Assembly: GCF_900116515.1 (NCBI RefSeq)
Contig: NZ_FPBA01000013.1
Coordinates: forward strand, 1 to 64,000
Direction: 5' to 3'
Length of the DNA: 64,000 nt
Source: Geodermatophilus amargosae
GTDB taxonomy: Bacteria; Actinomycetota; Actinomycetes; Mycobacteriales; Geodermatophilaceae
Below the pieces are notes generated by a model. It had not been told where the DNA came from, searched no databases, and worked only from the letters and a program-made list of their open reading frames with translations. The translations under genes and the position numbers were made by a program. Shown piece by piece: positions 40,362-53,830 of this stretch (the stretch's first letter is position 1; each line of letters opens with the position of its first letter).

Positions 40362-41836
40362 GCCGGGAGCTGGCCCTCGCGGCGGTCGACCTGGGCGCCT
40401 CCAGCGGCCGGGTGATGGTCGCGAGGGTCGGCCCCGGGCGGCTGGACCTCACCGAGGTCCACCGCTTCCCCAACCGGCCGGTGCGGACGGCGGGGACGCT
40501 GCACTGGGACGTCCTCGGCCTCTATGCCGGGGTGCTCGACGGGCTGCGCGCCGCCGGCCACGAGGCCGACGGCCGGGGCATCGACGGCATCGGCATCGAC
40601 AGCTGGGCGGTCGACGTCGGCCTGCTCGACGCCGACGGCGCGCTGCTGGGCAACCCGGTGCACTACCGCGACGCCCGGCACGAGACGGCGGTGCCGCAGG
40701 TGCACGCGCTCGTCCCGCCCGACGAGCTGTACCGCGTCAACGGCCTGCAGCACCTGCCGTTCAACACGGTGTTCCAGCTGGCCGCCATGCGGGGGACCGC
40801 GCGGTTCACCGCGGCGTGCCAGGCGCTGCTCGTCCCCGACCTGCTGGCGTACTGGCTGACCGGGGCGCGGGTCGCGGAGGTCACCAACGCCTCCACCACC
40901 GGCCTGCTCGACGCGACGACGCGGCAGTGGGCGACCGGACTGCTCGACCGGCTGGACCTGCCGCGCGACCTGCTCCCGGCGCTCGTGCAGCCCGGTGACG
41001 AGATCGGCCGGCTCACCGCCGACGTCCGCGCCGAGACCGGCCTGGGCGACGTGCGGGTGATCGCGGTCGGGTCGCACGACACCGCGTCGGCGGTCGTCGG
41101 CGTCCCGGCGCGCGGGGACCGGTTCGCCTACATCTCCTGCGGCACGTGGTCGCTGGTCGGCGTCGAGATGGAGGAGCCGGTGCTCGGTGAGGCCGGGCGG
41201 GCCGCCGGCTTCACCAACGAGCTCGGCGTCGACGGCACCGTGCGCTACCTGCACAACGTCATGGGCCTGTGGCTGCTGCAGGAGTCGCTGCGCACCTGGG
41301 CCGCGCACGGGCTGCCGGCCGACCTCCCCGACCTGCTCGCCGCCGCCGCGCGGGTGCCGGCCTTCACGGCGGTGGTCGACGTCGACGACGCGCGCTTCCT
41401 CCCGCCCGGCGACGTGCCCGCCCGCATCGCGCAGGTGTGTGCCGAGACGGGGCAGACGCCGCCGCAGAGCCAGGCCGAGACGGTGCGCTGCATCGTCGAC
41501 AGCCTCGCGCTGGCCTACCGGCGCACGGTGCGGACGGCGGAGGAGCTCTCGGGCCGCGAGGTCGACGTCGTCCACCTGGTCGGCGGGGGAGCGCGCAACG
41601 CGCTGCTGTGCCAGCTCACCGCGGACGCCTGCGGGCGGCCGGTGCTGGCCGGGCCGGTGGAGGCCGCGGCGCTGGGCAACGCGCTGGTTCAGGCCCGGGC
41701 CCTCGGCGCGCTCGAGGGCGGACTGGGGGAGATGCGCCGGCTGCTGCGCACCACCCAGCAGCCGGTCGAGTACCGGCCCACGGGGTCGGCCGCCGCCTGG
41801 GACGCCGCCGAGGCGCGGGCGTACCGGGACCGGTGA
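40358..41836 (+). CDS. rhaB: L-rhamnulokinase
   Basis: This 492-residue FGGY kinase phosphorylates L-rhamnulose. The phosphate loop is AAVDLGASSGRVMVA. Next come HRFPNRPVRTAGTLHWDVLGLYAGVLDGL, GIDSWAVDVGLLD, YRDARH and LPFNTVFQLAA, all typical of RhaB. The C-terminal domain has VIAVGSHDTASAVVGVPA, FAYISCGTWSLVGVEM and VHLVGGGARNALLCQLTADACGRPVLAGPVEAAALGNAL. The ATG overlaps the rhaEW stop (ATGA). Although last in order, it acts between RhaI and RhaE. Confidence 0.94.
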   Translation: MSRELALAAVDLGASSGRVMVARVGPGRLDLTEVHRFPNRPVRTAGTLHWDVLGLYAGVLDGLRAAGHEADGRGIDGIGIDSWAVDVGLLDADGALLGNPVHYRDARHETAVPQVHALVPPDELYRVNGLQHLPFNTVFQLAAMRGTARFTAACQALLVPDLLAYWLTGARVAEVTNASTTGLLDATTRQWATGLLDRLDLPRDLLPALVQPGDEIGRLTADVRAETGLGDVRVIAVGSHDTASAVVGVPARGDRFAYISCGTWSLVGVEMEEPVLGEAGRAAGFTNELGVDGTVRYLHNVMGLWLLQESLRTWAAHGLPADLPDLLAAAARVPAFTAVVDVDDARFLPPGDVPARIAQVCAETGQTPPQSQAETVRCIVDSLALAYRRTVRTAEELSGREVDVVHLVGGGARNALLCQLTADACGRPVLAGPVEAAALGNALVQARALGALEGGLGEMRRLLRTTQQPVEYRPTGSAAAWDAAEARAYRDR

Positions 41837-41868
41837 GTCACCGGCGGCCGCGCGGGTAGGTACCGCCC

Positions 41869-43248
41869 GTGCGCCTGCCCGGTCCCTCGGACCTCCTCGA
41901 CCTGCCCTGGACGCTCGCCGAGTCCGTCCGCACCCTGGGCGCGGCGCTGCCCCGCGCCGAGGGCCTGCTGCCACTCGCCGACGACGTGCTCCGCCGGACC
42001 CGTGCCCTGCTCGACGGCGCCGGTCCCGCGGTGGCCCGAGTGGTCGCGGTGGGCCCGGAGGCCGTGGAGGCGGCCTCGGACGTCATGCGGCGCTTCGCCG
42101 CCGTCATGACCCCGGAGCGGATCGCGGCCCTGGGCACCCTCGTCGACCGGATCGGCACCGCGCTGTCGCCGGAGCGGGTCGAGGCGGTCACCCGGACCGT
42201 GGACACCCTGCGGTCGCGGGCCGACGTCGTGCCGCGGGCCCTCGACGCCGTCGACGGCCTGCTGTCCTCCGGCCTGCTGACCCCGGGCCGGCTGGACGGG
42301 ATCGCGGACGGTCTCGACCGGCTGCTGTCGACCGACCTGCTGACCCGGGTCGAGCGGGTGCTCGACCACCTGGCCGACGAGCGCGTCGAGCGCGCCCTCG
42401 ACCTCGCGGGGGACGACCGGGTCGTGCGGGCCCTCGAGCTCGTCACCGGCGACCGGGTCGACCGCACCCTCGACGTCCTGACCGACGAGCGGGTCGACCG
42501 GACCCTGGACCTCCTGACCGGCGACCGGGTCGACCGGACCCTGGACCTCCTGACCGGCGACCGCGTGGAGCAGGCCCTCGACCTGGCCGCCGACGAGCGG
42601 GTGCGCACGCTGCTCGACCTGGCCGCCGACGAGCGGGTGCAGCGACTGCTCGTCCGGCTCGACGACCTGCTCGCCGACGAGCGTGTCCCGCGGCTGGTGG
42701 AGCGCGGTGTCGGGCTGCTCGACGACGAGCGCCTGGCCCGTGTCGGCGCCCGGGTCGACCGACTGCTGTCCGACGAGCGCCTCGACCGCCTCGAGGAGGC
42801 GCTCGGCGAGGAGCAGGTGGACGCCGTCCTCGGGCTGCTCACCCGGCTGGGCCGCGAGCTCGACGACGACGCGACCCGCGCGCTGGGCACGCTGCTCGGC
42901 CGCCTGCCCGCGCTGCTCACCGAGCAGCGGGCCGCCGACCTCGCGGCGCTCACCGACCAGATCCCGCGGCTGCTGCGCGGGCTCGACTCGGGTCACCTGC
43001 CGACCACCGCCGACCTGGGGCGGGTGCCGACGGACCTGCACGCGCTGCTCGAGCTGATGGACGACCTGCACCAGGTGGTGTCGGGCCTGCCCGGGGCCGG
43101 TCGCGCACGCGACCGCGGCGACGACCCGCACCCGCAGGTGGAGAACCCCCGGCCGCCGGACGACGAGCCCCGTTCGGAGACGGACGCCCTCCCGTCCGGA
43201 GACGGACACCCGCGCGTGCAGACGGACGCCCCCCAGTCCGAGGGCTGA
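41869..43248 (+). CDS. Uncharacterized tandem-repeat protein (12- and 16-residue repeats)
   Basis: I do not recognise this 459-residue protein. Residues 169-252 are seven consecutive 12-residue units of the pattern [A/T][D/G][E/D]RVxxxLDL[A/L]. Residues 253-316 are four 16-residue units starting ADERV or DDERL. Similar PERI/PERV segments occur near residue 80-105. The repeats predict charged amphipathic helices. The C-terminal 50 residues are acidic, Pro-rich and probably disordered. There is no signal peptide or membrane helix. The GTG start is 32 bp after rhaB, so co-transcription with the rhamnose genes is possible but a shared role is not evident. Confidence 0.75.
   Translation: MRLPGPSDLLDLPWTLAESVRTLGAALPRAEGLLPLADDVLRRTRALLDGAGPAVARVVAVGPEAVEAASDVMRRFAAVMTPERIAALGTLVDRIGTALSPERVEAVTRTVDTLRSRADVVPRALDAVDGLLSSGLLTPGRLDGIADGLDRLLSTDLLTRVERVLDHLADERVERALDLAGDDRVVRALELVTGDRVDRTLDVLTDERVDRTLDLLTGDRVDRTLDLLTGDRVEQALDLAADERVRTLLDLAADERVQRLLVRLDDLLADERVPRLVERGVGLLDDERLARVGARVDRLLSDERLDRLEEALGEEQVDAVLGLLTRLGRELDDDATRALGTLLGRLPALLTEQRAADLAALTDQIPRLLRGLDSGHLPTTADLGRVPTDLHALLELMDDLHQVVSGLPGAGRARDRGDDPHPQVENPRPPDDEPRSETDALPSGDGHPRVQTDAPQSEG
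42490..42561 (+). repeat. Exact 36-bp tandem duplication inside repeat gene
   Basis: Two identical 36-base units (42490-42525 and 42526-42561), encoding RVDRTLDLLTGD twice. Neighbouring units are similar but diverged, indicating recent in-frame duplication. Confidence 0.9.
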
Positions 43249-43250
43249 AG

Positions 43251-43306
43251 AAGGGCCCCGTCCTCTCCGCCCCTCGCACGCTCAGGGCGGGACCCGGGAC
43301 GGGGCC
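43251..43306. repeat. Intergenic palindromic repeat, family A copy 3
   Basis: Outer stem GGCCCCGTCC/GGACGGGGCC (perfect 10 bp), inner stem CCGCCC/GGGCGG, loop CTCGCACGCTCA. It begins 3 bases after the repeat-protein stop; here it can serve as a terminator. Confidence 0.75.
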
Positions 43307-43320
43307 GCTCACCGGAGTGC

Positions 43321-43373
43321 GTCCTGGCTCGCCGCCGACGGTGAGCCGGGACACGGCACGATCAGCTCACCTG
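43321..43373. repeat. Palindromic repeat, family C copy 1
   Basis: A 53-bp element, 48/53 identical to 53778-53830. The hairpin is GTCCTGGCTCGCC-GCCGAC-GGTGAGCCGGGAC; both departures from perfect pairing are G-U wobbles on one strand. Confidence 0.75.
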
Positions 43374-43460
43374 GTCGTCCGTGCGCTGCTGCGCGTCCTC
43401 GTCCGGGTGCGCGGCGTCCACCTCCTCCGCCTCGAGGGCCAGGGCGCCACGCCAGTCGGC

Positions 43461-43474
43461 TGAGAACGTTAACA
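43461..43474. promoter_or_regulatory. LacI/AraR-type operator candidate 1
   Basis: TGAGAACGTTAACA has the central AACGTT and outer TG/CA of LacI-family palindromes and differs at two positions from TGTGAACGTTCACA. It lies upstream of the arabinose-type ABC operon. Confidence 0.55.
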
Positions 43475-43547
43475 GGCTGTGATCCGGCGCATCAGGCGAC
43501 GACCACCCACGCATGGATGACTGGCGCCCCATTCGCTGCGGAGCCAC

Positions 43548-43577
43548 TTGACGCGACCATATGTTTGCGTTCACAGT
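43548..43577 (+). promoter_or_regulatory. Candidate promoter of the arabinose ABC operon
   Basis: TTGACG (43548-43553), 18 bp, CACAGT (43572-43577), in a locally AT-rich stretch. The second operator candidate covers the -10. Confidence 0.4.
43562..43575. promoter_or_regulatory. LacI/AraR-type operator candidate 2
   Basis: TGTTTGCGTTCACA carries one exact half site (CGTTCACA) of the TGTGAACGTTCACA-type palindrome. It overlaps the candidate -10 box. Confidence 0.45.
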
Positions 43578-43721
43578 GTCCCGCATCACGCCCAGCAGCG
43601 TCGCCGGGCCCACAGGACGAGCCGCCCGAGAGCGCGTCCGGGGACCAGTCAGCGGTGGTCGCCCTGGGAGCACCACGACACCGGCCAGGACGGGCCGGCA
43701 GGAACTCACAGGAGGCAGACG

Positions 43722-48663: not shown

Positions 48664-48734
48664 CGGCCCTGGGGTCCCCGCCCCTCGACGGCACGGGCCG
48701 CGGGACGCACCGCGGCCTGACAGGATCGGCGGCC

Positions 48735-49784
48735 GTGAGCGGGCGGCCGAGGAGCCAAGCGGGCAACCGCCCGGCCGTCATGGCCGACGTCGCCCGGCTG
48801 GCCGGGGTGTCGGCGCAGACCGTCTCCCGGGTCCTCAACGACCACCCGCACGTGGCCGAGGAGACCCGCACCCGGGTGCACGCGGCCATGGAGAAGCTGG
48901 GCTACCGCCGCAACCTCACCGTTCGGGCGCTGGTCACCCGCCGCACCGACACGATCGGCGTCGTCGCCTTCGACACCGGCCTCTACGGACCGGCCAGCAC
49001 CCTGTTCAGCCTGGAGCAGGCGGCCCGCGAGCGCGGCTACCACGTGCACGTGGCCACCGTCCCCGACCTGTCGGAGCAGGGGTTCAGCGACGCCGTCGAG
49101 CGGCTCCGGGAGCACTCGGTGTCCGGGGTCGTCGTCCTGGCGCCGCAGCGCTCGGCCGTCCGGGTGATGGCCGGCCTCCCCACCGACCTGCCCGCGGTCG
49201 CCGTCGAGGGCGGTGCCGCGCCGGGCATCACCTCCGTGGTCATCGACCAGGTGGGGGGCGCGGTGCAGGCCACCCGGCACCTCGTCGACCTCGGCCACCG
49301 CCGCATCGGGCACGTGTCCGGCCGCGAGGACTGGATCGAGGCCGCCGCCCGGCTGCAGGGCTGGCAGCAGACCCTCGCGGCCGCCGGGCTGCCCGCCGAC
49401 ACGGTCCTGCCCGGTGACTGGAGCGCCCGCTCGGGCTACGAGGCCGGCCTGTCCCTCCTGGCCGCGGGCGTGCCGGTGACCGGCGTCTTCGTCGGCAACG
49501 ACCACATGGCGCTGGGCATGATCCGTGCGCTGGCCGAGGGCGGGGTCCGGATCCCCGAGGACGTCAGCGTGGTGGGCTTCGACGACATCGCCGAGGCGGA
49601 GTACCTGCGTCCTCCGCTCACCACCGTGCGGCAGGACTTCGCCGAGGTGGGACGGCGCTGCGTGGACCTGCTGCTGCGCCGCATCGAGGACCCGGCGGGG
49701 ACGTCGGGCGACGACGCCGTCGTCGTCCCGGCGGCCCTGGTGGTTCGCGCCTCGACCGCCCCGCCGCCCGGCTCCCGGCCCTAG
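48735..49784 (+). CDS. LacI family regulator, AraR-like
   Basis: The HTH (AVMADVARLAGVSAQTVSRVLNDHPHVAEETRTRVHAAMEKLGYRRNLTVRALVTRR) is followed by a ligand core (IGVVAFDTGLYGPASTLFSLEQAARERGYHV, VPVTGVFVGNDHMALGMIRALAEGGVRIPEDVSVVGFDDIAEAEYLRPPLTTVRQ). It has 349 residues from the GTG at 48735; an earlier GTG at 48660 overlaps the permease stop and is an alternative. It sits between the transporter and araBDA, matching the LacI-type AraR of corynebacteria in family and context. Likely ligand L-arabinose (inference). Confidence 0.88.
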   Translation: MSGRPRSQAGNRPAVMADVARLAGVSAQTVSRVLNDHPHVAEETRTRVHAAMEKLGYRRNLTVRALVTRRTDTIGVVAFDTGLYGPASTLFSLEQAARERGYHVHVATVPDLSEQGFSDAVERLREHSVSGVVVLAPQRSAVRVMAGLPTDLPAVAVEGGAAPGITSVVIDQVGGAVQATRHLVDLGHRRIGHVSGREDWIEAAARLQGWQQTLAAAGLPADTVLPGDWSARSGYEAGLSLLAAGVPVTGVFVGNDHMALGMIRALAEGGVRIPEDVSVVGFDDIAEAEYLRPPLTTVRQDFAEVGRRCVDLLLRRIEDPAGTSGDDAVVVPAALVVRASTAPPPGSRP

Positions 49785-53753: not shown

Positions 53754-53777
53754 CAGCGTCCTGGCTCACCGCGGCGC

Positions 53778-53830
53778 GTCCTGGCTCACCACCGACGGTG
53801 AGCCAGGACGCGGCACGATCGGCTCACCTG
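53778..53830. repeat. Palindromic repeat, family C copy 2
   Basis: A perfect 13-bp stem (GTCCTGGCTCACC, loop ACCGAC) followed by CGGCACGATCGGCTCACCTG. A partial extra copy, GCGTCCTGGCTCACC at 53756-53770, precedes it with a 20-bp period. It lies between the convergent araA and DUF3500 genes. Confidence 0.78.

Follow-up and report, generated by a model that had tools for sequence, protein, structure and literature searches.

A protein of 12- and 16-residue repeats downstream of rhaB in Geodermatophilus amargosae: a diverged paralogue with a candidate general-stress promoter

Introduction

The stretch of Geodermatophilus amargosae DNA analysed here (the window, 64,000 nucleotides) carries an open frame on the + strand, 41869 to 43248, which begins with GTG and encodes a protein of 459 amino acids with a tandem repeat array. 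A gap of 32 bp separates it from rhaB, which lies upstream in the same orientation, and a sugar ABC transporter follows. Is it a part of the rhamnose operon, or an independent gene, and what might be the use of an array whose repeat length changes along its course? The first-pass annotation, which called the product an unknown protein of unusual repeats, put forward both placements.

The gene and its repeat array

The following features, all on the + strand, are distinguished in the frame:

41869 to 43248, +: coding sequence, 459 aa; the GTG lies near the predicted transcription start (leaderless)
41869 to 42372, +: N-terminal segment, residues 1-168, starting VRLPGPSDLLDLP; its outline is common to the canonical paralogues described below
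42373 to 42624, +: seven 12-residue repeat units, residues 169-252
42490 to 42563, +: a 36-bp unit duplicated exactly in tandem (period-36 matches at 38 consecutive positions)
42625 to 42816, +: 16-residue repeat units, residues 253-316, three good and the fourth degenerate
42829 to 43137, +: C-terminal helical domain of about 105 residues, assigned by homology to an order-wide uncharacterised family
43138 to 43245, +: Pro/Asp-rich variable C-terminal tail, the fastest-evolving part

Third codon positions of the frame are 96% G+C. In comparisons with six relatives, the N- and C-terminal parts have Ka/Ks values of 0.14-0.54, the 12-residue units of 0.13-0.69 and the 16-residue units of 0.33-0.81; the C-terminal tail, at 0.48-1.49, is the one part that exceeds 1 in some comparisons. 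Such values show that the frame is protein-coding and under selection: it is a genuine gene, carried by actinobacteria of soil and rock.

Both periods claimed for the array are present. Residues 169-252 show 45 identities out of 72 at lag 12, where shuffled sequences average 9.8 (maximum 21, 5000 shuffles); for residues 253-316 at lag 16, the count is 22 out of 48, with a shuffled average of 6.3 (maximum 16). Tandem Repeats Finder (TRF) scores the DNA of the array at 249, with period 36. The seven 12-residue units and the change of period therefore stand as first described, while the count of four 16-residue units holds for three: the fourth, SDERLDRLEEALGEEQ, keeps the head (DERL) alone. Units of both lengths carry a common DERV-type helix cap. 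As had also been noticed, two units are identical in their DNA (42490-42527 equals 42526-42563), which points to the recent duplication of one 36-bp unit.

The frame is open in each of 15 further genomes, namely those of twelve other Geodermatophilus, one Modestobacter and two Blastococcus, so that the frameshifted orthologues that would have spoken against a maintained frame are absent. The orthologues have between 1 and 10 of the 12-residue steps and between 0 and 4 of the 16-residue ones. Since the unit counts vary, both parts of the array do expand and shrink, in agreement with the earlier view that the array is still changing length. Near-identical units are also found in relatives: the 16-residue units of one (G007) match in 46-47 of 48 bases, and another (G010) has two identical 12-residue units. 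The plasmid records searched contained no relative of the repeat protein.

A conserved promoter-like motif

Two boxes precede the gene:

41835 to 41838, +: −35-like box, GAGT (GNNT), which shares bases with the stop codon of rhaB; identified by conservation of GNNT
41854 to 41859, +: −10-like box GGGTAG of SigB/SigF type; identified by conservation of GGGTA and by the SigB consensus (PMC8346170)

The GGGTA sequence stands 10-11 nt before the start codon in 16 of 16 genes, with differing upstream neighbours, and reads GGGTAG in all 14 genes from Geodermatophilus and Modestobacter. GNNT lies 15 nt before GGGTA in 14 of the 16 and 16 nt before it in G007; it was not seen in the upstream region of G028. 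The spacer is less conserved than the boxes. Some of the similarity upstream is accounted for by common descent, and this counts to some extent against reading it as a promoter of the gene's own.

In Streptomyces coelicolor, SigB promoters have the form GNNT/GGGTAx (PMC8346170), and the mycobacterial SigF promoter element is GGGTAY (PMC7693655). The GNNT-N15-GGGTAG shape is thus common to the repeat gene and the SigB/SigF general-stress regulon of actinobacteria (PMC8346170, PMC7693655), and the gene agrees with the consensus GNNT/GGGTAx at the proper spacing, as judged by the motif alone. The genome has sigma genes of the SigB/F/G family, one of which, at G000:C64:296339-297010, scores above the TIGR02980 cut-off. 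Given the position of the GGGTA boxes, the transcript would start at or next to the GTG. While the motif itself is plainly conserved, we infer from it both the identity of the sigma factor and induction by stress. A generic scan for sigma-70 promoters and terminators across 41700-43700 gave nothing.

The whole motif with a start codon occurs 12 times in the window's genome, against 2 for the reversed control, and 89 times in 13 relatives, against 9 for the control. A GC3-rich open reading frame starts at 11 of the 12 sites; the genes led by the motif include two hemerythrins, enzymes of the short-chain dehydrogenase, epimerase and aldo-keto reductase kinds, a GNAT protein and a PNPOx-like protein. 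When the stress promoter is sought in its strict GTTT form, the genome has a single instance. As a class, GNNT-N15-GGGTAG-N9-RTG, with its fixed distance to the start codon (sites in the whole genome, e.g., L119-L130), is enriched about tenfold across the Geodermatophilaceae, and its genes are candidates for a leaderless general-stress regulon. No regulon paper naming the product of the repeat gene was found in the literature.

Independence from the rhamnose genes

Could the gene nevertheless belong to the rhamnose operon, with a role in sugar catabolism or uptake? Its close placement after rhaB, in the same orientation and ahead of the sugar transporter, speaks for this, as does the finding that 8 of 16 genomes have the gene and rhaB in one wider neighbourhood, with a rhaB fragment adjoining the gene in a ninth (G008). 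However, it lies within 40 bp of rhaB in only two of the 16, the window and G007; it is away from the rha genes in seven, and in several genomes an NmrA-type oxidoreductase gene precedes it and intervenes. Elsewhere its neighbours are lactate-utilisation or unrelated genes. The promoter motif accompanies it in every context, gene and promoter stand isolated in Modestobacter, and the near-universal canonical relatives occur in other contexts. Neither a steady placement with rha genes nor the want of an own promoter was thus found, the latter judged by the motif. Because the gene appears to carry its own general-stress-type promoter, membership in the rhamnose operon is very improbable, and the other proposal, an independent gene, is the one that we retain.

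The Modestobacter case deserves description. A 1.4-kb block of 96% identity is shared by G. sabuli (L048:8165-9572) and Modestobacter excelsi (L049:5880-7292). Besides the gene, it takes in some 78 bp on the upstream side and some 30 bp on the downstream side; the flanks are unrelated, and the sole other similarity between the loci is a stretch of about 200 bp at 77%, lying elsewhere. The block is best read as a recent transfer between two genera, in which gene and promoter seem to have moved together. In G. sabuli, the block has an integrase-like ORF as its immediate neighbour (L048, 9640-10176).

Relation to a family with 14-residue repeats

Searches of Pfam, NCBIfam, PHROGs and PDB sequences gave no match to the protein above a curated cut-off, and hence no known repeat family, and no paper on it was found in the literature. 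Weak profile hits were discounted, as they look like composition or coiled-coil bias. The helical repeats of MgtE_N and DUF445 (Pfam; E 0.97 and 0.034) are alike in having short capped helices in tandem, but the scores are far below the curated cut-offs (10.4 vs 25.9 and 14.5 vs 33.8 bits) and the repeat protein is without a channel or membrane part; membership was rejected.

The label of unknown protein is nonetheless correct only in part, since the C-terminal domain belongs to an order-wide family. A single-sequence search finds a relative of 333 aa in the same genome (G000:C29, E 1.4e-8), whose own repeats give 74/96 identities at lag 14. Of 298 genomes from the order, 156 have a match to the profile of the C-terminal domain, a profile that includes the repeat gene, whose own score is therefore not independent; it matches in 6 of 396 genomes sampled phylum-wide, where few candidates were scored per genome. 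The repeat protein and this 14-residue-repeat family share the start LPxPGPSD(V/L), the C-terminal domain of about 105 residues ending GxPG..R.RG, in which the invariant residues align (identity 32-41%), and expandable repeats between the two ends. They differ in the repeats, units of 12 and 16 residues as against two-heptad repeats of 14, and in the sequence before the start codon, GGGTAG as against TAGCGT (TANNNT-type) in the canonical paralogues. The repeat lengths therefore indicate a diverged paralogue rather than a typical family member, and on these comparisons the gene is a Geodermatophilus-centred one, set apart by its spacer and by its promoter-like box. The stress promoter would then be the derived state.

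The canonical paralogues (L002:910-1911, L015-L045) have 14-residue repeats such as ITAVGATNQKADEA, in copy numbers that vary widely between species, and the TAGCGT box upstream of them is highly conserved. Among their neighbours in other actinobacterial families, no common partner came to light.

Structure and possible function

Single units are amphipathic, with moments mostly of 0.45-0.64, while the whole arrays, taken at 100 degrees, have moments of 0.07 and 0.12. A continuous amphipathic helix of the 11-mer or heptad kind was rejected, as its hydrophobic face is lost over the array. The four residues by which the units differ amount to roughly one helical turn. With amphipathic units and no continuous face, this would suit a chain of short capped helices with turns between them. 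AlphaFold, the structure prediction suggested earlier, gave helix throughout, but with an inconsistent topology and low confidence: pLDDT 44 and pTM 0.25 for the full length, and pLDDT 66 and pTM 0.24 for the array alone, where the 12-mers form one long helix and not separate short ones. The protein is thus predicted to be all-helical, with a fold that is more conjectural.

We propose, at a probability of about 0.5, that the gene is a transcription unit in itself, with its own SigB/SigF-type general-stress promoter, from which a leaderless or near-leaderless mRNA would begin at the GTG, and that the product is a probably cytosolic, all-helical, diverged paralogue, likely acting as a scaffold or tether that stress induces. 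Its conserved N- and C-terminal parts would attach to a partner or surface, with the spacing set by the array between them, whose length drifts by duplication and loss of units; the 16-residue unit would be the 12-residue unit, with the same DERV-type cap, lengthened by about one α-helical turn. This proposal builds on the repeats, the family link, the conserved motif and the independence from the rhamnose genes, all of them read from sequence; the scaffold or tether role goes a step further. Against it stand the low AlphaFold confidence and the long helix modelled for the 12-mers, and the genomic neighbourhoods revealed no binding partner.

The apparent stress promoter would also suit two other functions. 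The protein might coat lipid or polymer surfaces under stress, as a membrane- or granule-surface protein of the phasin or perilipin kind, and every unit is indeed amphipathic and leucine-rich; yet units of 12 and 16 residues give no continuous α-helix face, no phasin model matched above its cut-off, and the protein is net negative, so we consider this doubtful. Slightly less probable again is a LEA-like, stress-induced protein, disordered in the hydrated state, that protects cell components during drying. Repeats with amphipathic units, the low AlphaFold confidence and the habitat would agree with it, Geodermatophilus being a dry-habitat genus. On the other hand, the composition (GRAVY −0.23, 19% Leu) is too hydrophobic for a hydrophilin, and the conserved C-terminal domain, being under purifying selection, suggests a specific fold.

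Returning to the scaffold or tether, it is tempting, though this is a tentative extension that we think less probable than its alternatives taken together, to regard the whole family as helical rulers with homologous ends and interchangeable, unlike spacers, either a 14-residue coiled coil or capped helices of 12 and then 16 residues, one helical turn apart. One paralogue would have exchanged a housekeeping promoter for a general-stress one and passed from genus to genus as a cassette of gene plus promoter. In any case, the analysis links an anonymous repeat protein with a predicted stress regulon and with a large actinobacterial family that is itself uncharacterised. Its host organisms are known for dry, irradiated habitats, and these links give a direct test of function. 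Moreover, the orthologues, in which repeat number and period vary while the ends are fixed, form a natural series useful for learning how helical arrays change period.

Other elements around the gene

Two further elements lie downstream. A palindrome-like sequence, AACGTTAAC, at 43462-43480, upstream of the sugar ABC transporter genes, resembles a LacI-family operator, and a LacI-type regulator gene ends the transporter cluster (about 48700-49784). A small inverted repeat, GCGTCCTGGCTCACCG...CGGTGAGCC(A/G)GGAC, is present at 43315-43360 and again at 53756-53811; its exact 16-mer was counted 8 times in the genome and never in the control. It is probably a REP-like or terminator element, and related hairpins follow the repeat gene in several orthologues.
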